Source: Brevibacillus humidisoli (GTDB taxonomy: Bacteria; Bacillota; Bacilli; Brevibacillales; Brevibacillaceae). Taken from it: 64,000 nt of DNA. Shown piece after piece: positions 280-9,537 of this stretch (position 1 is its first letter; each line of letters opens with the position of its first letter). Location of the stretch: NCBI RefSeq assembly GCF_020923435.1, contig NZ_CP087263.1:1259970-1323969 (forward strand), written 5' to 3'. Both the position numbers and the translations under genes were made by a program. Below the pieces are notes generated by a model. That model was not told where the DNA came from, searched no databases, and saw only the letters and a program-made list of their open reading frames with translations.

Positions 280-1590
280 ATGATGCGCAAAAGTCTGGTT
301 CGATTTGCTCAAGTAATCGTGTTATTTGTCATGGTAATCAATGCCGGGTGCTCCTTGCCTGTCGTACAGATGGAACAAGGCCAGGAGATGATAGGCGGAA
401 CAGGGGAGAAGGATGTCGAGCAGAGAAGTTCGCCCATAGCGGGAGACTCCGAGTCAGTTGCGTCCACTGCGTCAGCAGCATCGTCAGAATGGTCTGGAGC
501 CACTGAACGTTCAGAAGCGGCGAGGCAGAGCGCACAACAGCAGACGGAACCATCTGCCGGCGAGGAGAGCCACAGCGCTAACCATGCAACTGTCACCACA
601 GAGCAGACAGCCGAGCCGCCAGCGGTTGAGTTGGTCCCATACGAGGGACCGGTAGAGCATATTTTCTTTCATCCGTTGATTGCCTATCCTGAGCTTGCTT
701 TTGACCAAGACGCCATGTCCAAGGGGTATGACGATTGGTTCGTCACAGTAAGTGAATTTGAGAAAGTCATCGCCTCCCTCTATGAAAAGAACTACATCCT
801 GATTGATATCCATTCTCTGTACGAACGACAGACCGTAGAAGGGAAGCAGGTGCTCCAGGCGGCTCAACTCATGTTGCCAGAGGGGAAAAAACCGCTGATT
901 CTCTCCATCGATGACCTCAACTATTACGAATACATGCGGCAGAACGGAAATGCATACAAGCTGGTCCTCGATGCCCAGAACAAGATTGCGACCTATTCCC
1001 GAACTCCCGAGGGGCATGAGGAGATTGCTTATGACAACGAGATTATTCCGATCCTCGATCGATTTGTAGAGGAACACCCTGACTTTTCCCATCAAGGGGC
1101 AAAAGGGATTATCGCTCTGACAGGCTATGAAGGGGTCTTGGGCTATCGTACCAATCTGATTGATGCTCCCGATTACCAGCAGGTGAAGCAGGAAGTGATG
1201 AGCGTAATTCAGCGGCTAAAAGAAACGGGTTGGACTTTTGCCTCCCATGGGTATGGACACCTGGATGCCAATAAAGTGAGCTATCAGCGGCTGGTTGCCG
1301 ATACCGCACGATGGAAGCGGGAAGTAGAGCCGCTGCTTGGTCCTACTTCGGTTTACATCTATCCCTACGGGAGTCGGGTGGAAACCGGCAGCAAAAAGCA
1401 TCGCTATCTGATCGACGCTGGTTTCGATGTGCTTTGTTCAGTCGGCCCTGCTCCGTATCGCAAGCAAACGCCGGAAGTGCTGATGATGGATCGGCGTCAT
1501 ATCGATGGTCTTGCCTTCAAAACACAGCGCGATCGCCTGCTGCCGCTGTTCGATAGTGAGCAGATCCTCGATCCGATAAGACCCGAGTGA
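280..1590 (+). CDS. Lipoprotein with a polysaccharide-deacetylase-like (NodB-type) domain
   Basis: About 436 aa. The start at 280 (or the adjacent ATG at 283) is chosen because an AGAGGAGG ribosome site ends at 275; the longer GTG frame from 259 would include it. Residues 1-24 form a lipoprotein signal with lipobox NAGC (Cys24), so the protein is probably exported and lipid-anchored. Residues of roughly 30-120 are a Ser/Thr/Glu/Gln-rich linker. The rest resembles a NodB-type deacetylase: an SIDD acidic pair near residues 209-212, SHGYGH (His323, His327) as the metal-binding H-x3-H, and a YPYG motif later. The usual TFDDG is replaced by SIDDL, so activity and substrate (peptidoglycan or other polysaccharide) are uncertain. 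It converges on fdhD with about 20 bp between the stop codons. Confidence 0.75.
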   Translation: MMRKSLVRFAQVIVLFVMVINAGCSLPVVQMEQGQEMIGGTGEKDVEQRSSPIAGDSESVASTASAASSEWSGATERSEAARQSAQQQTEPSAGEESHSANHATVTTEQTAEPPAVELVPYEGPVEHIFFHPLIAYPELAFDQDAMSKGYDDWFVTVSEFEKVIASLYEKNYILIDIHSLYERQTVEGKQVLQAAQLMLPEGKKPLILSIDDLNYYEYMRQNGNAYKLVLDAQNKIATYSRTPEGHEEIAYDNEIIPILDRFVEEHPDFSHQGAKGIIALTGYEGVLGYRTNLIDAPDYQQVKQEVMSVIQRLKETGWTFASHGYGHLDANKVSYQRLVADTARWKREVEPLLGPTSVYIYPYGSRVETGSKKHRYLIDAGFDVLCSVGPAPYRKQTPEVLMMDRRHIDGLAFKTQRDRLLPLFDSEQILDPIRPE

Positions 1591-1610: not shown

Positions 1611-2417
1611 TCATTTGTCTGTCGCCGTTACAACCCGTTCCGTTCCCGTGTACACATTCATTTTGCCATTGCGGACAAACCCAATTGCCGTAATCCCCAA
1701 TTCTTCGGCTAGTGTTAAGGCCAGATCAGTCGGTGCCGACTTGGAGATCAAGATCCCGGCACCGATTTTTGCTGCTTTCAGCAGGACTTCTGATGAGATG
1801 CGGCCGCTGAAAACCAGCAGTTTATCGGTCATTTCGACTTGATTTTGCAGGCAGTAGCCATAGATTTTATCCAGCGCGTTGTGGCGGCCAATGTCGGAAT
1901 AGCGGACAACGATGCCCTGAGTGGTGCACAGAGCGGCATTGTGTACACCGCCTGTACTCTGGTGAATCAGCGATCCCTGCTGCAGTTCATCCATTAGCCG
2001 CTGGCAGGCGTCAACGGTTACGAGCGCCTTGCTCTCAACTGGCTTTGCCGTACGGGCGTCACTGAAAAAATAAAAGGATTGCCGGCTTTTCCCACAGCAG
2101 GAGGTAATCCTTCGCTTTGCATAAAAACTTTGCTCCAGCTTCAGCTCGTACTGGAGGTCGGCATAGGCAAATCCCTTGTTGGTGTCAATCAATAATTGCT
2201 TTACGTCCTGATAGGAGCTAATCACTCCTTCCGACGCCAAGAAACCGATCACCATCTCTTCCAGATCATCAGGGGTACAAACGACAGTAGCAAATTCTTC
2301 GTCGTTGACAAAAATCGTCAACGGATACTCTACCGCAATCTCATCTTCCTCCAAAACCCAGACACCGTCATGGTATCTGGCAGTGGAATGGGTTGTCGTC
2401 GCTGATCGTACAGCCAT
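1611..2417 (-). CDS. fdhD: FdhD, formate dehydrogenase accessory sulfurtransferase
   Basis: 268 aa, full length. FdhD moves sulfur from a cysteine desulfurase to the molybdenum cofactor before insertion into formate-dehydrogenase-type enzymes. Visible family features are the YPLTIFVN start of the core, the CTPDDLEEMVIGFLASEG segment, the TSCCGKS cysteine motif (adjacent cysteines, where the E. coli protein has C-x2-C), TGGVHNAAL, SDIGRHNALDK and the SGRISSE / SKSAPTDLA region. It is transcribed away from the MFS carrier gene and shares a 361-bp intergenic region with it. A molybdoenzyme gene at 4769 and Mo-cofactor genes at 7155-9537 give it obvious clients and partners. Confidence 0.96.
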   Translation of the reverse strand: MAVRSATTTHSTARYHDGVWVLEEDEIAVEYPLTIFVNDEEFATVVCTPDDLEEMVIGFLASEGVISSYQDVKQLLIDTNKGFAYADLQYELKLEQSFYAKRRITSCCGKSRQSFYFFSDARTAKPVESKALVTVDACQRLMDELQQGSLIHQSTGGVHNAALCTTQGIVVRYSDIGRHNALDKIYGYCLQNQVEMTDKLLVFSGRISSEVLLKAAKIGAGILISKSAPTDLALTLAEELGITAIGFVRNGKMNVYTGTERVVTATDK

Positions 2418-2565: not shown

Positions 2566-2643
2566 TATTTAGCCGAATGGCCTTGACACGGAATAGCGCT
2601 CCTGTTCCCGGTCACGGCATTGCACGGCATACCGACTTGTGTA

Positions 2644-2678
2644 GTTGATGCTTGGTAGCGATCCTGCTAAAGATTAAC
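2644..2678 (+). ncRNA. Conserved leader hairpin, copy 1 (candidate antiterminator)
   Basis: The RNA can fold as GTTGAT / one-base bulge / CTT / GG bulge / TAGC, a six-base loop GATCCT, then GCTA / AAG / ATTAAC. That is 13 pairs with one G-U. Copy 2 (4591-4625) is identical except the single-base bulge (G versus A) and one loop base (T versus C), so all paired bases are the same. The final AAC (2676-2678) is also the start of the terminator stem that follows, so the two structures exclude each other. It lies about 100 nt upstream of the MFS carrier gene. Sequence and pairing are seen directly; the regulatory role is inferred. Confidence 0.65.
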
Positions 2679-2746
2679 TGCCGCATATCTCAATGATGGG
2701 ACAAATGTATGTCCTTCTTGGGAGATTTGCGGCAGTTTTCTTTTTT
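2676..2746 (+). terminator. Intrinsic terminator in the leader of the MFS carrier gene
   Basis: AACTGCCGC (2676-2684) pairs with GCGGCAGTT (2729-2737), and the stem continues inward with ATCTC/GAGAT and an inner GGACA/TGTCC hairpin. It runs into a U-rich tract to 2746. It sits 32 bp before the MFS coding region, so it is a leader attenuator, not the end of an upstream gene, since the upstream gene fdhD is divergent. Confidence 0.75.
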
Positions 2747-2778
2747 ACACAAAATCGACAGAAGGGGATGAATCAGAG

Positions 2779-4044
2779 ATGCAGACACACAAAAACCGCT
2801 GGCTCATCGCAGCAGCAGCAGTGGGAATCCACATCTCGATTGGTTCGGTGTACGCATGGAGCGTATTTACCAAGCCACTGATGAATCAGTTTAACTGGGG
2901 GTTGCAGGAAGTATCCCTGACCTTCAGCATCGCTATCTTGTTTCTCGGCCTTTCTGCCGCCTTTTTGGGCCACTACGTGGAGCGGCATGGTCCTCGCAAA
3001 GCGGGAACATTGGCTTCGATCTTTTTCGGGTTGGGCATCGCGGGCTCAGGTCTAGCCGTCAGTTTGGAATCTATTTATCTGTTGTATCTGTTCTACGGCG
3101 TACTGGGCGGCATCGGACTTGGGGTCGGGTACATCACACCTGTTTCTACACTGGTCAAATGGTTTCCTGACAGGCGCGGACTGGCTACCGGGCTTGCGAT
3201 TATGGGCTTTGGTTTCGCCTCGTTGATCAGCAGTCCGATCATGGCCCGATTGATCGATAGCGTCGGGATCGCCGGCACCTTTTACATCCTGGGCGCGGTC
3301 TATTTCCTGCTGATGTTTGGTTCTTCCCAGTATCTCGCACCACCGGCCGAGGGATGGCTGCCTGCCGGTTACAAGGCCAAGCTGGATGCCGGCCAGAAAA
3401 AACCGGTAACCGACTTGTCCCAGCTGACTGCCAATGAAGCGGTGAAGACACTGCGTTTCTACTGGCTCTGGTTAATGCTCTTCATCAATGTCACTTGCGG
3501 GATTGCTGTCATCTCCGTTGCCTCCCCGATGGCCCAAGAGATTGCGGGTATGACACCGCTGGCGGCCGCTACCATGGTTGGATTGATGGGGCTGTTCAAC
3601 GGTTTGGGTCGAATCGGTTGGGCCTCGCTGTCCGACTATATCGGCAGACCAAATACGTATACCGCCTTTTTCATTATTCAGGTGATTGCTTTCTTCCTGC
3701 TGCCGACTGTCACTCAAGCACTGCTGTTCCAACTGATTGTCTTCTTGATTCTGACCTGCTACGGTGGCGGCTTTGCCTCCATTCCCGCCTACATCGGCGA
3801 CCTGTTTGGCACCAAGCAGCTAGGGGCGATTCACGGTTATATCCTGACGGCTTGGGCGGCTGCCGGACTGGCCGGACCGATCCTGGCTAGTTGGGTGCGT
3901 GAGACCACGAACAGCTATACGGCAACACTCTACATCTTTGCCGGGATGTTCGTGATCGCTTTGATCGTCTCGCTGCTGATTCGATTGGATATCCGAAAGC
4001 TGCAGGCGATTAACGAGCAGAGACAGATGGATCTGGCTGGCTGA
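2779..4044 (+). CDS. OFA-type major facilitator (oxalate/formate or related monocarboxylate carrier)
   Basis: 421 aa, twelve predicted membrane spans with a central cytoplasmic loop near residues 190-230. The opening (HISIGSVYAWSVFTKPL) and the segment GLGVGYITPVSTLVKWFPDRRGLATG match what I know of the OFA family, which includes the oxalate:formate antiporter OxlT and lactate-type carriers. The substrate is not shown by sequence, but fdhD and a formate-dehydrogenase-like enzyme beside it favour formate, oxalate or a similar acid. The start follows AGAAGGGG with about 11 bp spacing; an ATG at 2768 is in another frame. The leader carries a hairpin/terminator pair. Confidence 0.88.
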   Translation: MQTHKNRWLIAAAAVGIHISIGSVYAWSVFTKPLMNQFNWGLQEVSLTFSIAILFLGLSAAFLGHYVERHGPRKAGTLASIFFGLGIAGSGLAVSLESIYLLYLFYGVLGGIGLGVGYITPVSTLVKWFPDRRGLATGLAIMGFGFASLISSPIMARLIDSVGIAGTFYILGAVYFLLMFGSSQYLAPPAEGWLPAGYKAKLDAGQKKPVTDLSQLTANEAVKTLRFYWLWLMLFINVTCGIAVISVASPMAQEIAGMTPLAAATMVGLMGLFNGLGRIGWASLSDYIGRPNTYTAFFIIQVIAFFLLPTVTQALLFQLIVFLILTCYGGGFASIPAYIGDLFGTKQLGAIHGYILTAWAAAGLAGPILASWVRETTNSYTATLYIFAGMFVIALIVSLLIRLDIRKLQAINEQRQMDLAG

Positions 4045-4063
4045 TCGATCTGAAGCGGGCTCA

Positions 4064-4092
4064 TTGCTAAACGCTGCAGCCAGTGATACAAT
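4064..4092 (+). promoter_or_regulatory. Candidate sigma-A promoter for the DUF2294 gene
   Basis: TTGCTA (4064-4069) and TACAAT (4087-4092), 17-bp spacing, starting 20 bp after the MFS stop codon. A transcript from here would include the DUF2294 gene and then run into the second hairpin/terminator leader before the molybdoenzyme gene. Pattern match only. Confidence 0.45.
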
Positions 4093-4147
4093 ATTTGTAC
4101 GACTTCGACCAATGTGAGAATTTCGCGGTTAAAGGATTGTATCGGAA

Positions 4148-4519
4148 ATGAACAAATACGAAGCGGAGTTTAGCAACCTCGTCCGCGCCTTCCGCAAGCG
4201 CCACATGGGCAAAGGACCCAGCAAAATCAACACTACCTTTTGCAAGCACTGGGCCATCTGCGAGATGGAAGGAAATCTCTCGCCAGTGGAAAAATTTATC
4301 GCCAGCGCAGATGAAGGCAAACAGATGCTGCGAGCGGCGAGAACGGAAATGGTCAAAGAAATGTATAAAAAGAATCGTCCTGTCGAAATGGAGGCGTTTC
4401 TGGGGGCAAACTTGATCGACTTGTTTGTTGACATTGATATCGAACGCGATTTTGGCATGTCGATCTTTGTCTTCGATGAAAATATAGAAGAGAAGTTTTG
4501 CCAAGAAAAAGGAAAATAG
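4148..4519 (+). CDS. DUF2294-family protein
   Basis: 123 aa, soluble, no signal or membrane segment. The pattern GKGPSKI...LSPVEKFIASADEGKQMLRAARTE followed by a C-terminal VDIDIERDFGMSIFVFDEN matches the DUF2294 family as I know it (B. subtilis YbcI is a relative). The biochemical function is unknown. It lies between the carrier gene and the molybdoenzyme gene and has its own candidate promoter, so it belongs to the formate/molybdenum module by position. No strong ribosome site is visible before the ATG; AAAGGA is about 12 bp upstream. Confidence 0.8.
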   Translation: MNKYEAEFSNLVRAFRKRHMGKGPSKINTTFCKHWAICEMEGNLSPVEKFIASADEGKQMLRAARTEMVKEMYKKNRPVEMEAFLGANLIDLFVDIDIERDFGMSIFVFDENIEEKFCQEKGK

Positions 4520-4590
4520 GTTTCCCGTGACCCTTCCCCGGCAGCGCACCTGCTTGAGGGCAGCCATGAAGAAACCAACAATGCCGCGAA

Positions 4591-4625
4591 GTTGATACTT
4601 GGTAGCGACCCTGCTAAAGATTAAC
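4591..4625 (+). ncRNA. Conserved leader hairpin, copy 2 (candidate antiterminator)
   Basis: Same 35-nt element as at 2644-2678, with 33 of 35 bases identical: GTTGAT, A bulge, CTT, GG bulge, TAGC, loop GACCCT, GCTA, AAG, ATTAAC. The final AAC (4623-4625) is shared with the first bases of the following terminator stem. The sequence on either side is not conserved with copy 1, so conservation stops at the hairpin boundaries. It precedes the molybdoenzyme gene by about 145 nt. Confidence 0.65.
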
Positions 4626-4680
4626 CACCGTGATCTCTTCTTTTCCGCCAGGAGAAAAGACGATTTCGCGGTGGTTTTTT
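4623..4680 (+). terminator. Intrinsic terminator in the leader of the molybdoenzyme gene
   Basis: AACCACCG (4623-4630) pairs with CGGTGGTT (4669-4676), an inner TCTTTTC/GAAAAGA arm extends the structure, and a T-tract runs to 4680. Apart from the shared AAC its stem differs from that of the terminator at 2676-2746. It could also end the DUF2294 transcript, but overlap with the conserved hairpin argues for an attenuator. Confidence 0.75.
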
Positions 4681-4768
4681 CATTGTTGGGTGCAGTTTGC
4701 TTCCATCTCGACAACGTATCCCTCCGTAATGCCGTAGAGAGAAAACAACCAAAACGAGGAGTGTTTGT

Positions 4769-7120
4769 ATGGGAAAGACAAAGCATACAGGGCCAATCAA
4801 ACTGGATACCTCTTGGAAACCGTCGTTGTGGGCCGGTCTGATGCCGATGGGGCTGGGCAAAGTGAAACCGCATCACATCCGCGATTCGATGAAAGTGGTA
4901 TACGAGAATCGGGACAATCTGTCGTACGCGTGGCGAATTCTCACGCAGGGAGTGTGTGACGGGTGCGCCTTGGGTGTATCAGGGTTGAGAGATCAGACGT
5001 TGACAGGGCCTCATCTCTGTACCACTCGGTTGAACGTATTGCGCTTAAATACAATGCCTGCGATCGATCCCAAATGGCTAGAAGACGTAGATGAGTTGCG
5101 CAAACTGGACAGTACCCAACTGCGTAAACTGGGGCGCATCCCCTACCCACTGTCACGCAAGCCGGGCGAGAAGGGATTTCGGCGGATTACCTGGGACGAA
5201 GCGCTCGATCGGATCGCAAGCAAGATCAAGTCAATAGATCCCAAGCAGCTCGCCTTTTATCTCACCTCCCGCGGCATAACCAATGAAGTTTATTACGTTG
5301 CCGCCAAAGTGGCTCGTTTTCTCGGGACCAACAATGTCGACAACGCTTCCCGCATCTGCCATTCACCCAGCAAGACAGCACTGAAGCGATCACTGGGGAT
5401 TGGAGCGTCCAGTTGCAACTACAAAGACTGGATCGGCACTGATGTATTGGTGTTCTGGGGGTCCGTCGCGGCCAACAATCAACCAGTTTCCACCAAGTAC
5501 ATGTATGCGGCCAAGAAAGCAGGCACCAAGATTATCATGATTAATCCGTATCGCGAACCGGCGATGGAGAACTATTGGATTCCTTCGATCGCGGAAAGTG
5601 CCTTATTCGGGACGAAGATTGTCGATGACGTCTACCAGGTGAACATCGGCGGTGACATCGCCTTTATGAACGGGGTGATGAAGCACTGGTTCGAGATGGA
5701 GGAGCGCCAGCCGGGGTCAGCCATCGATCGGAGCTTCGTCGAGGCGCATACCAACGGATTGGAGGAGCTGAGGGCTCATGTGCTGAAGTATGATTGGCAG
5801 ACTTTGGAGGACTCGTCTGGTCTTTCTCGGCAGCGGATGGCCCAGTTTGCTGAACTGTTGGCCGAAGCAAAGGCGGGTGTGTTCGTCTGGAGCATGGGTT
5901 TGACACAGCATCGCTTCGGAACGGACAACGTATCACAGGTTGCCAACCTCGCCATGCTGCGCGGCTTTATCGGTCGGGAGCATTGCGGTGTGATGCCGAT
6001 TCGCGGTCACAGCGGGGTGCAGGGAACAGGTGAAATGGGAGCAGAACCGATGTCGCTGCCGGGAGGTGTGCCGTTGGACGAAGAGAACATCGCACGAATG
6101 GAAAAAGTATGGCAGTTTACGATTCCGCGTTGGCAGGGAGATATCGTCGGTGTCTCCCTGGAAAATGCTTTGCTTCCAGATGATCATGAGCGAAAAACCC
6201 GGCTGTTTTATACGAGTGGCGGCAACTTTCTGGAAACCATGCCTGACCCAGTATTCGTCAAATCGTGTCTGGAAAACGTGGAATTGCGTGTCCATCAGGA
6301 TATCATTCTAAATACCTCTACGCTGGCAGATGCCAAGGAGGAAGTGATCGTCCTGCCAGCGATGACGCGCTATGAGCAGCCAGGTGGAGGTACCTCTACG
6401 AGCACCGAGCGGATGGTGTATTTCAGCCCAGAGATCGAAGGACCACGCATTGCAGAGGCTCGTTCGGAATGGGAGATATACATTGATTTGGCTTCCCGGG
6501 TCGATCCCGAGCGGAAGCATCTGATTTCGTTTGCCGACGCGCAGGCGATCCGCGAAGAAATCGCCATTGCCAACCCCAACTACGACGGCATTCAGCACTT
6601 GAAGAAGCGTGGCGACGTGTTTCAGTGGGGGGGGGCTTGGCTGTGTGAAGGAGGGATTTGTCCGACGCCGGACGGACGCGGCAACCTGCTCTCGATCGAA
6701 CTGCCGGAGTTGCGCAAATCAGAAGGGCAGTTCTATGTGACCACTCGGCGGGGCAAACAGTTTAATTCGATGATTTACAGCGAAACAGATCCGTTCAATG
6801 CGGCTGATCGTTATGATGTGCTGATCCATCCGTCCGATGCGGCTAGTCTGGAGATCCGCGACAACGAACCGATCGTGGTGTACAATAAATATGGAACGTT
6901 TAAGGGACGTGCCAAGTATGCCGATACAAAACAGGGCAACCTGCAAGTATATTGGCCGGAAGGGAATGTATTGATTCCCAAAGGTGTGTATGAGGAGTAT
7001 GCGGGTATCCCGGAGTACAACACGACGGTGATTGTCGAAAAGGCAGAAACCTATCACGCTCATAAAGACACAAAATACGTAGAGAAGCGTATTGAGGAAC
7101 TGGAAATGGAGATCAGTTGA
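4769..7120 (+). CDS. FdhF/YdeP-family molybdopterin oxidoreductase (formate-dehydrogenase-like)
   Basis: 783 aa, soluble. The N-terminus has GVCDGCALGVSG (Cys63, Cys66) and HLCTTRL (Cys84), typical of the YdeP-like branch and not the longer four-cysteine [4Fe-4S] domain of classic FdhF. Then come the bis-MGD-binding core and NASRICHSP, whose Cys197 is the likely Mo ligand (no selenocysteine codon). GHSGVQGTGEMG and the C-terminal MopB-CT-like beta-barrel (DRYDVLIHPSDA onward) complete the fold. Activity is inferred as formate oxidation or a related reaction; YdeP itself is linked to acid resistance and its substrate is not settled. The start follows GAGGAG. A run of nine G at 6627-6635 lies in codons 620-623. 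mobA follows by 34 bp. Confidence 0.88.
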   Translation: MGKTKHTGPIKLDTSWKPSLWAGLMPMGLGKVKPHHIRDSMKVVYENRDNLSYAWRILTQGVCDGCALGVSGLRDQTLTGPHLCTTRLNVLRLNTMPAIDPKWLEDVDELRKLDSTQLRKLGRIPYPLSRKPGEKGFRRITWDEALDRIASKIKSIDPKQLAFYLTSRGITNEVYYVAAKVARFLGTNNVDNASRICHSPSKTALKRSLGIGASSCNYKDWIGTDVLVFWGSVAANNQPVSTKYMYAAKKAGTKIIMINPYREPAMENYWIPSIAESALFGTKIVDDVYQVNIGGDIAFMNGVMKHWFEMEERQPGSAIDRSFVEAHTNGLEELRAHVLKYDWQTLEDSSGLSRQRMAQFAELLAEAKAGVFVWSMGLTQHRFGTDNVSQVANLAMLRGFIGREHCGVMPIRGHSGVQGTGEMGAEPMSLPGGVPLDEENIARMEKVWQFTIPRWQGDIVGVSLENALLPDDHERKTRLFYTSGGNFLETMPDPVFVKSCLENVELRVHQDIILNTSTLADAKEEVIVLPAMTRYEQPGGGTSTSTERMVYFSPEIEGPRIAEARSEWEIYIDLASRVDPERKHLISFADAQAIREEIAIANPNYDGIQHLKKRGDVFQWGGAWLCEGGICPTPDGRGNLLSIELPELRKSEGQFYVTTRRGKQFNSMIYSETDPFNAADRYDVLIHPSDAASLEIRDNEPIVVYNKYGTFKGRAKYADTKQGNLQVYWPEGNVLIPKGVYEEYAGIPEYNTTVIVEKAETYHAHKDTKYVEKRIEELEMEIS
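6627..6635 (+). repeat. Nine-G homopolymer inside the molybdoenzyme gene
   Basis: Nine consecutive G encode part of Trp620-Gly621-Gly622-Ala623. With nine G the gene is open to its natural end. Runs of this length are prone to slippage, so loss or gain of one base would truncate the C-terminal domain. Confidence 0.9.
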
Positions 7121-7154: not shown

Positions 7155-7778
7155 ATGAGCAAACGATCAGTGTGCGGTGTCATTCTCGCCGGCGGTGCCA
7201 GCCGTCGCATGGGGACTCCGAAAGAAATGCTGGACTGGGGCGGACAACCGCTGATCCTCCATCTCGTCAAGAGCGTACTGGCGGCGGAGATCCCCTGTCT
7301 GGTGATTGCCAACCAGCAAGCACGGCTGCCGGTTGACACCTTCAAAGAGATGGGTGTTCAGTTGTCAGCAGATATCGTTTTTTCCAGTGGTCCGATCAGC
7401 GGTTTCTGCACGGCGTTCAGGCTTCGCCGTGAGGAAGTGCTGCTCTTTCTCTCTTGTGATCTTCCCTTTGTCGATCAGGCTCAAATCGATTTGCTGCTGG
7501 CGAAAACGGAGCAGCTTAATTGCTGGGACGCAGTGGTTCCAGAAACAGAGGGGCGCATGCAGCCCCTTTTTGCGCTTTATCATAGAAGAACACAAGACAT
7601 GTGGGAGGAAGCCCATCATTCCGGTGCTCTACGTATCACACGAGTAGTGGAGAAACTGCGTGTCAACATGCTGCCTGAGGGATACCTCGATTATTGGACG
7701 ACGTTTAACATGAATACTCCGGAAGAGTATCGACATGCGCTGCAGGAAAGGAAGAGAAGAGATGCGCTTTCATCGTGA
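7155..7778 (+). CDS. mobA: MobA, molybdenum cofactor guanylyltransferase
   Basis: 207 aa, full length. MobA links GMP from GTP to molybdopterin to give the MGD cofactor used by DMSO-reductase-family enzymes such as the one encoded just upstream. The nucleotide-binding signature LAGGASRRMG is at residues 11-20, and the CDLPF motif contains the metal-binding Asp. The end of the gene overlaps the moeA start by 17 bp, so the two are translationally linked. A GGGGAG/AGAGG site precedes the ATG. Confidence 0.95.
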   Translation: MSKRSVCGVILAGGASRRMGTPKEMLDWGGQPLILHLVKSVLAAEIPCLVIANQQARLPVDTFKEMGVQLSADIVFSSGPISGFCTAFRLRREEVLLFLSCDLPFVDQAQIDLLLAKTEQLNCWDAVVPETEGRMQPLFALYHRRTQDMWEEAHHSGALRITRVVEKLRVNMLPEGYLDYWTTFNMNTPEEYRHALQERKRRDALSS

Positions 7779-9018
7779 AACGGTTAGCGTCGAGGAGGCG
7801 GTTGCCAAGCTGCTGGAGCAGGTCGCACCGCTTGCCATCGAAGAGGTTCCGCTAGCGGAAGCATACGGCAGGGTGTTGGCTGAACCGGTGTATGCAGCTT
7901 ACGACTTGCCGCCGTTTGACCGTTCACCGCTGGATGGGTACGCTGTACGGTCGGCAGACACTGCTTCGGCTACTCCTGACACCCCCGTCACCCTTGAGGT
8001 GATCGAGACGGTAGCGGCAGGGGAAGTGCCTCGCCATCCGGTGGCAAGTGGTCAGGCCTGCCGGATTATGACAGGAGCGATGATGCCTGATGGCGCCGAT
8101 GCGGTTGTGATGTTTGAACAGACGGAGAATCCGGGGCAGAAGCTGAACCAGGTCAACGTAAAACGTGCGATGAAACCGGGAGAAAACATCGCCAGACAAG
8201 GGGAAGAAGTAGCCAAAGACAACTGCGTGCTGCAGGCAGGGGAGCAGATTGGGGCAGGAGCTCTCGCGCTGCTGGCCACATTTGGGGCTGCTTGTGTACA
8301 GGTGAGGCGCAGGCCGCGCATTGGTATCGTCTCCACCGGCAGCGAGTTGGTTGAGCCGGATCAACCGCTGTCCCCGGGCAAAATCCGCAATAGTAATGCA
8401 CCAATGATAGCCGGGATGATCTGTGATGCTGGCGGAGCCCCTGTTGTGCTCGGGTGTTTGCCAGATGAGCCGGAAACAGCCAAGCGGAAACTAGCTGATT
8501 GGAGCAAACAGGTAGATTTTCTGGTCACCACTGGAGGTGTGTCCGTCGGTGATTTTGACCTGATCACCACCCTCGTTGAAGATCCGCAGTTCAACTTGCT
8601 GTTTCACCGGGTGGCGATGAGGCCTGGCAGCCCTACCACGGCCGTCGTTTATCAAGGAACGCTGATCTGTGCTTTATCGGGCAACCCCTCTGCCTGTTTT
8701 ATCGGCTGCGAATTGCTTGTCAAGCCGCTGCTGGCCAAACTGTTGGGGAAACCAAACTCAATCCCAACAACAGTAGAAGCGATCCTGGCCAAAGACTACC
8801 TGAAACCCTGTCCGTATCCGCGCTACCTACGTGGCAGCATCGAGGTGGAACAGGCTGTCTTGTACGCCTATCCTGACATGAACGACAAAGCGGGCAGATT
8901 GGTTACGCTTCATCAAAACAACTGCTTGATCATCATACCGCCGGGTGGCAGGGGGAGACGAGCTGGGGAGCGGGTTCGTGTATTTCCGCTCACAAAAAAC
9001 GGACAGTTTTGCTTTTAG
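7762..9018 (+). CDS. moeA: MoeA, molybdopterin molybdenumtransferase
   Basis: 418 aa from the ATG at 7762, which is chosen over the ATG at 7735 because GGAAAGGAAGAG lies just upstream of it and MoeA proteins start near this point. MoeA inserts molybdate into adenylylated molybdopterin. Visible motifs include LAEAYGRVLAEP, PPFDRSPLDGYAVR, TGAMMPDGADAVV, GGVSVGDFD and ALSGNPSACFI. No MogA, MoaA or MoaE gene is in the window, so early cofactor synthesis must be encoded elsewhere. Confidence 0.96.
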   Translation: MRFHRETVSVEEAVAKLLEQVAPLAIEEVPLAEAYGRVLAEPVYAAYDLPPFDRSPLDGYAVRSADTASATPDTPVTLEVIETVAAGEVPRHPVASGQACRIMTGAMMPDGADAVVMFEQTENPGQKLNQVNVKRAMKPGENIARQGEEVAKDNCVLQAGEQIGAGALALLATFGAACVQVRRRPRIGIVSTGSELVEPDQPLSPGKIRNSNAPMIAGMICDAGGAPVVLGCLPDEPETAKRKLADWSKQVDFLVTTGGVSVGDFDLITTLVEDPQFNLLFHRVAMRPGSPTTAVVYQGTLICALSGNPSACFIGCELLVKPLLAKLLGKPNSIPTTVEAILAKDYLKPCPYPRYLRGSIEVEQAVLYAYPDMNDKAGRLVTLHQNNCLIIIPPGGRGRRAGERVRVFPLTKNGQFCF

Positions 9019-9045
9019 GAAAAGGATGCGAAAGAGGCGACGCCG

Positions 9046-9537
9046 ATGTTCTCAGTACCGCCGATCATTCAAATCGTCGGCTATTCCAATACCGGCAAAA
9101 CGACCTTGATCACCTATCTGATCAAACACTTTCAGCAGAGCGGCCGTCGGGTCGGGGTGATTAAGCGAGATGGGCACGATCACGAATGGGACCAGGAAGG
9201 AAAGGATACCAGAAAGTTTCGAGATGCTGGGGCACCATTGGTGGCTATTCAATCGCCGACAAAGATGGCATGGTTTGAACAGCCTCCGCTCTCGCTTCCT
9301 GTGTTGATTGAGCGAATGCACCAGGCAGGGGCCCAACTGATTATCGTCGAAGGGTTTAAAACGGCGTCATATCCAAAATTGCTGCTGATACGGGAGCTCT
9401 CCCATCTGGCTCTGCTTGACAGTCTGACCAACTGTCGGGGAATCGTGAGTTGGTTTCCTTTAGAAGATCAGGGGCTTCCTGTTTATTCGATTGAACAGCC
9501 CCAGCAGGTGGCGGCGTTTGCTGAATCGTTGTTTTGA
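9046..9537 (+). CDS. mobB: MobB, molybdopterin-guanine dinucleotide biosynthesis adaptor
   Basis: 163 aa. A small P-loop GTPase that assists MobA; it is not essential in E. coli. The Walker A motif GYSNTGKT is at residues 12-19, and IIVEGFK is the downstream family motif. It starts 27 bp after moeA and is the last gene of the cofactor set; a strong terminator follows at 9575. Confidence 0.94.
   Translation: MFSVPPIIQIVGYSNTGKTTLITYLIKHFQQSGRRVGVIKRDGHDHEWDQEGKDTRKFRDAGAPLVAIQSPTKMAWFEQPPLSLPVLIERMHQAGAQLIIVEGFKTASYPKLLLIRELSHLALLDSLTNCRGIVSWFPLEDQGLPVYSIEQPQQVAAFAESLF

Follow-up and report, generated by a model that had tools for sequence, protein, structure and literature searches.

Gene arrangement and leader elements

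The window, i.e., the whole stretch of 64,000 nucleotides analysed here (Brevibacillus humidisoli, contig NZ_CP087263.1, positions 1,259,970 to 1,323,969), contains an operon composed of a carrier gene, mpsC and a gene for an FdhF-type molybdoenzyme, with molybdenum-cofactor genes downstream and a divergent fdhD upstream. The carrier gene and the molybdoenzyme gene are each preceded by a leader, designated A and B, respectively. The individual features are as follows (positions are those of the window):

1611..2417, minus strand: fdhD, formate dehydrogenase sulfurtransferase, divergent from leader A (PF02634 and TIGR00129 above cut-off)
2582..2616, plus strand: hairpin P1 of leader A, upstream of the carrier gene (core TAG-CGCTC-CTG, assigned by pattern; -18.6 kcal/mol with flanks)
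2644..2678, plus strand: hairpin P2 of leader A, the first element of the sequence-only reading (core TAG-CGATC-CTG; P2 covariation)
2676..2746, plus strand: intrinsic terminator of leader A (-33.0 kcal/mol, z -8.2, followed by a T-run; starts with the AAC of P2)
2779..4044, plus strand: MFS carrier of the MCT/OFA type (PF07690; NCBIfam L-lactate MFS transporter above cut-off)
4148..4519, plus strand: mpsC, DUF2294 (type i), between the leaders; candidate RNA-binding antiterminator (PF10057, gene linkage)
4530..4564, plus strand: hairpin P1 of leader B (core CAG-CGCAC-CTG; fold weaker than that of P1 in leader A)
4591..4625, plus strand: hairpin P2 of leader B, the second element of the sequence-only reading (core TAG-CGACC-CTG; P2 covariation)
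4623..4680, plus strand: intrinsic terminator of leader B (-27.8 kcal/mol, z -5.6, followed by a T-run; starts with the AAC of P2)
4769..7120, plus strand: FdhF/YdeP-type molybdoenzyme (TIGR01701 above cut-off; PF00384, PF01568)
7155..9537, plus strand: mobA, moeA and mobB, molybdenum-cofactor genes, downstream (PF12804, MoeA domains, PF03205)

Each leader consists of two related hairpins, P1 followed by P2, which share the core YAG-CGNNC-CTG and lie with their cores 61-62 nt apart. The sequence-only reading had assumed a single hairpin per leader and overlooked the related P1 upstream; its claim of two nearly identical 35-nt hairpins at the P2 positions is confirmed by sequence comparison, with 33 of 35 nt being identical. 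In the complete genome (4.9 Mb), these are the only two copies of the 35-nt P2 element when up to three mismatches are allowed, and the chance expectation for the 22-nt P2 core in the window amounts to 0.00 occurrences. Moreover, both P2 hairpins outfold 200 of 200 shuffled sequences (z -4.8 and -3.9). Both P2 elements contribute their last bases AAC to the 5' start of an intrinsic terminator, which had likewise been proposed and agrees with the computed folds of the two terminators; P1 does not overlap a terminator in either leader. A promoter scan of the leaders was uninformative (five found, 2.1 expected).

Regarding the encoded proteins, the carrier had been classified as OFA-type, yet it passes the NCBIfam model for L-lactate MFS transporters (462.7 at a cut-off of 320) and fails the oxalate/formate antiport model (210 at a cut-off of 375), which leaves the label 'OFA' uncertain. 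The translated FdhF-type enzyme displays RICHSPS where formate dehydrogenases carry Cys/Sec-His. MpsC, encoded only once in the genome, matches PF10057 (MpsC/DUF2294) with 113.5 bits at a gathering score of 23.

Consensus fold and covariation

P1 and P2 adopt the same 35-nt consensus fold, composed of 5 bp, a 2x1 internal loop, 3 bp, a 1x2 internal loop, 4 bp and a CGNNC pentaloop. Under this fold, 91.7% of cells are paired in the alignment of 35 P2 sequences and 81.9% in that of 35 P1 sequences, the latter with two-sided changes in nine of 12 pairs; as only sequences that fit 35 nt without gaps entered the alignments and Brevibacillus hairpins with indels did not, these counts lean towards structure. 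The covariation score reaches 0.320 for P2 (shuffled 0.169; slid versions at most 0.109) and 0.299 for P1 (shuffled mean 0.189; slid versions at most 0.163), and in either case none of 500 shuffles scored as high. Internal loops and pentaloop are kept in both alignments while the stems vary, with the core and pairs 14-22 and 15-21 being invariant partly by construction, since the search pattern prescribed the core; it left the outer pairs and pair 12-24 free.

The fold given earlier, with a single-base bulge, a GG bulge and a hexaloop, pairs only 83.3% of cells in 35 related P2 sequences, at a covariation score of 0.259, and is less well supported than the internal-loop/pentaloop fold. Its register (TAGC/GCTA stem, hexaloop) was rejected in view of P1 variants such as GATAG/CTGTC and of the pair counts. 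Two further interpretations of the hairpin were rejected. A palindromic DNA operator is unlikely because the compensatory changes obey RNA pairing rules and about half of the P2 sequences display a G-U type pair at 13-23, while a kink-turn reading of the Brevibacillus P2 (CUGA/UGAUGA boxes) was dropped for want of a three-base bulge.

Distribution and target genes

A small covariance model built from the two window copies was used to search genomes of the same family, most of which contain paired element copies approximately 1.9 kb apart. Outside the family, the tandem-core pattern was found in two Ammoniphilus-type genomes and one Bacillaceae MAG. A tandem-core scan of about 85,000 species genomes yielded, among the matches listed, Bacillus, Neobacillus, Evansella, Halalkalibacter, Alkalicoccus, Jeotgalibacillus, Cytobacillus, Pontibacillus, Pseudalkalibacillus, Alteribacillus, Ammoniphilus, Halalkalibacterium and Brevibacillus. 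In the Bacillales matches, the element lies upstream of or inside a carrier-MpsC-FdhF operon; those of the listed matches that fall outside Bacillales were taken for chance occurrences or tandem repeats, because none of the operon genes is found near them.

Over all loci, 159 leaders were counted, some genomes being entered twice. The carrier gene is preceded by 76 of them (72 tandem) and fdhF by 69 (31 tandem, 38 with one detectable hairpin), the remainder being located upstream of mpsC, fdhD, moeA or, once, another formate dehydrogenase. Both hairpins are present in 112 of the 159 leaders, and the core distance between P1 and P2 ranges from 60 to 79 nt across the leaders compared. For 147 of the 159 leaders, a simple search returned a terminator whose 5' arm shares bases with the 3' arm of the last hairpin, exactly three shared bases being the commonest case (71 leaders). 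A mobile or dispersed repeat is ruled out, given that only two to three leaders occur per genome and always at these target genes. The comparative test proposed along with the sequence-only reading does return copies at molybdenum and formate genes of other genomes, with compensatory changes in the stem.

In one Bacillaceae MAG (G054), the element stands upstream of the carrier gene and downstream of mpsC, and a tandem element with P2/terminator overlap is found on a separate contig in front of an unlinked formate dehydrogenase, which shares about 29% identity with the FdhF of the window and matches TIGR01591 in both of its parts:

L105 2657-4747, minus strand: formate dehydrogenase alpha gene of G054 with twin-hairpin leader (in-frame TGA at codon 144, NRTUHAPSV)

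The in-frame TGA occupies what we take to be the usual selenocysteine place in formate dehydrogenases. Since the unlinked target is a formate dehydrogenase, the common theme of the targets appears to be formate dehydrogenase or its cofactor, and the same locus suggests that the reader of the element can act in trans.

Two deviating situations were observed among the loci. Locus L063 (G018, Brevibacillaceae; about 4570-5340 in operon orientation) is a decaying operon, in which the carrier is absent and mpsC contains an in-frame stop while the hairpins of both leaders persist. The match to the carrier gene is split in two at L045 and at L062, which points to a frameshift, an insertion or an error of sequencing.

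Comparison with known antitermination systems

The targets of ANTAR proteins (EutV, NasR, AmiR) are tandem hairpins with conserved terminal loops, the second hairpin overlapping an intrinsic terminator; their hexaloops carry A at position 1 and G at position 4, and linkers of 5-12 nt are found in E. faecalis eut (PMC3369931). The present leaders resemble them in their tandem hairpins (112/159) and terminator overlap (147/159) but differ in their CGNNC pentaloops closed by an invariant YAG/CUG, in the internal loops of the stem and in the distance of 60-79 nt between cores. In addition, the ANTAR domain (PF03861) is absent from eight of 31 element-bearing genomes, several of which are estimated to be 99-100% complete. 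The sole ANTAR gene of the B. humidisoli genome (G000:C1:3351593-3351748; L072 6069-6797) adjoins NirB-, NasC- and NarK-type genes, and due to this neighbourhood of nitrate-assimilation type its target probably lies elsewhere.

RAT elements, the targets of the CAT-domain proteins BglG, LicT and SacY, are in turn hairpins of about 30 nt that exclude a terminator and have two asymmetric internal loops interrupting the stem (PMC3369936), and bglG is flanked by two terminators under its own control (PMC9499468). Similarly, the present element combines 2x1 and 1x2 asymmetric internal loops with a terminator overlap, and mpsC sits between two target leaders. Unlike RAT, however, its targets are formate and molybdenum genes instead of PTS sugar genes, and most A leaders contain tandem hairpins; presumably, its sequence is also unlike the RAT consensus. 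CAT_RBD (PF03123) is absent from six of the 31 element-bearing genomes, and three lack both ANTAR and CAT_RBD. Hence, neither can be the general regulator.

With the Moco riboswitch, the element shares its position as leader RNA upstream of molybdenum-related genes. A search of the 64-kb window against Rfam 15, comprising Moco riboswitch, T-box and all other families, gave zero matches at gathering score, and in the leader region only chance-level matches appeared at E values up to 10. Altogether, the layout is like that of ANTAR and RAT systems, and a membership test failed for each. The earlier statement that the element does not match ANTAR targets, BglG-type RAT elements, T-box or Moco riboswitch is backed by the pentaloop, the genomes devoid of ANTAR or CAT_RBD proteins and the Rfam result.

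MpsC as candidate factor

MpsC proteins at least 70% identical to that of the window are referred to as type i. In a protein search of 399 Bacilli genomes, type i MpsC was found in 47, after which a gap follows down to 56% identity for the best remaining match, and all 47 genomes carry the element. Among 78 distinct mpsC genes, 77 have an element within 200 nt downstream (median 51 nt) and 70 have one upstream as well as downstream; at the sole exception, L042, stands a hairpin variant with a two-base loop insertion, which was found by the covariance model. Six loci consist merely of element, mpsC, element and fdhF in this order, and some element-bearing loci are devoid of the carrier, FdhF or both, but never of MpsC. 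Being the best conserved protein of the operon, MpsC displays a median identity of 82.5% to the window protein, compared to 77.6% for FdhF, 74.6% for the carrier and 61.0% for FdhD. Genome G056 (L297, about 4793-5551, minus strand) has two mpsC-like genes side by side, which share 49% and 45% identity with that of the window and are directly followed by a variant element (TAGTGACCCTG core) located upstream of the carrier gene. This linkage is not proof of a role of MpsC, as genes of one operon co-occur anyway.

MpsC itself is neutral (20 K+R, 21 D+E), and its fold is predicted with a pLDDT of 91.7. Comparison of this fold with the PDB revealed no clear relative, the best values being a Foldseek E of 0.0086 (archaeal TRAPPC3) and a VIA Z of 7.2 (FtsK); both similarities are within the range of common arrangements, and no function was drawn from them. 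A profile search of MpsC against PDB sequences gave zero matches.

A second subtype, type ii MpsC (about 40-50% identical), occurs in operons together with a formate dehydrogenase of about 990 residues and DUF1641. Five of these loci share a different, strongly conserved leader (GGCGGGATGGATAACTRGTAT...GTTAACCCACCATAAAAC), in which one segment (approximately GTTAACCCACCATAAAAC) serves both as 3' arm of the hairpin and as 5' arm of the terminator, the terminator itself being highly conserved (GTTTTATGGTGGGTTTTT):

L248 about 1350-1510, plus strand: type ii leader
L301 about 1070-1260, plus strand: type ii leader
L302 about 1130-1320, plus strand: type ii leader
L249 and L255, minus strand: type ii leader, upstream of the FDH gene

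Those of these leaders that were searched against Rfam gave zero matches, and the same simple search did not detect the second leader at other type ii loci. The occurrence of two leaders with two MpsC subtypes, albeit in a small sample, would be expected of leader-reading MpsC proteins. As a tentative extension, MpsC/DUF2294 might constitute an unrecognised family of RNA-binding antiterminators in which each subtype has its own terminator-overlapping leader. The pairing would then be type i with the CGNNC twin hairpins and type ii with the leader of the FDH-DUF1641-MpsC operons.

Proposed mechanism and alternatives

The conserved, apparently undescribed Bacillales RNA element with the anatomy of an antiterminator is real, as its conservation, covariation, terminator overlap and gene linkage are direct observations. 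Regarding its function, a fold with P2 enforced is, at the median, 4.6 kcal/mol less favourable than the free fold and, therefore, stabilising help is needed. The P2 core is retained in the free minimum-energy fold of 98 out of 149 leaders, and, with the overlap of three bases being small, P2 and a shortened terminator may partly coexist. In case of ANTAR and CAT proteins, the stabilised antiterminator shortens the base of the terminator (PMC3369936).

By default, the terminator would prevail, and transcription would halt twice: at leader A, ahead of the carrier gene and mpsC, and at leader B, ahead of the molybdoenzyme gene. A trans-acting factor would recognise the common hairpin form, i.e., the CGNNC loop and the two asymmetric internal loops, and would hold P2, assisted by P1 in most A leaders. 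With P2 being held, the terminator stem could not close at its base beside the U-tract, resulting in read-through; loss of the bottom AAC would shorten the terminator base in the manner of the ANTAR/CAT mode. The factor would be MpsC (DUF2294, type i), encoded between both leaders, which would render the operon autoregulated in analogy to bglG between its two targets, and the likely signal would be formate or molybdenum-cofactor status. Switching, its sign, the binder and the signal are all part of what we infer here, and protein-dependent antitermination with MpsC as the likeliest protein is assigned a probability of roughly 0.5. Regarding the earlier proposal of a switchable antiterminator of no known family, the copies in other genomes, the covariation and the failed ANTAR and RAT membership speak in favour of such a putative switch.

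Alternatively, the hairpins could act as a riboswitch, binding formate, molybdate, molybdenum cofactor or a related compound directly, with MpsC merely being a regulated gene. The conservation of internal loops and pentaloop next to varying stems would fit such a role, as would targets united by formate and molybdenum chemistry, including the unlinked formate dehydrogenase, and MpsC is a candidate binder only. However, hairpins of 35 nt with small internal loops, one of which can suffice in FdhF leaders, offer little ligand pocket, the two-sided linkage to mpsC is left unexplained and no Rfam riboswitch was matched, so that a riboswitch is considered unlikely.

Equally improbable is an unlinked protein as reader of the hairpins, with MpsC sitting in the operon by chance, as an accessory protein of the enzyme. 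The lack of a known RNA-binding fold and of a net positive charge in MpsC would agree with this, and other MpsC subtypes do occur without the element, beside other formate dehydrogenases. Nevertheless, ANTAR (missing from 8/31 genomes) and CAT_RBD (missing from 6/31) are excluded as a general factor, the MpsC subtype and the element coincide exactly across the 399 sampled genomes, and the other MpsC subtypes followed have a different conserved leader that overlaps a terminator. Finally, it is very unlikely that the terminators are ordinary constitutive ones and that the hairpin next to them serves to stabilise or process the mRNA. The stem-loops with T-runs are real terminators by sequence and controlled read-through is a prediction, yet an unconditional stop inside the operon, right ahead of its main enzyme, would be a waste, and 147 of 159 leaders retain the overlap of hairpin and terminator although the terminator sequences differ.

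Significance

A literature search revealed no paper joining DUF2294 and formate dehydrogenase, none joining attenuation and formate dehydrogenase, and no report of a leader RNA for formate and molybdenum enzymes, each being a weak negative given the thin coverage of subscription papers. With the element described here, an apparently undescribed and widespread regulatory RNA of Bacillales would join the short list of terminator/antiterminator switches, tying this type of regulation to formate and molybdenum enzymes. At the same time, DUF2294/MpsC, a family without known biochemical function, gains a testable role, possibly in RNA binding.
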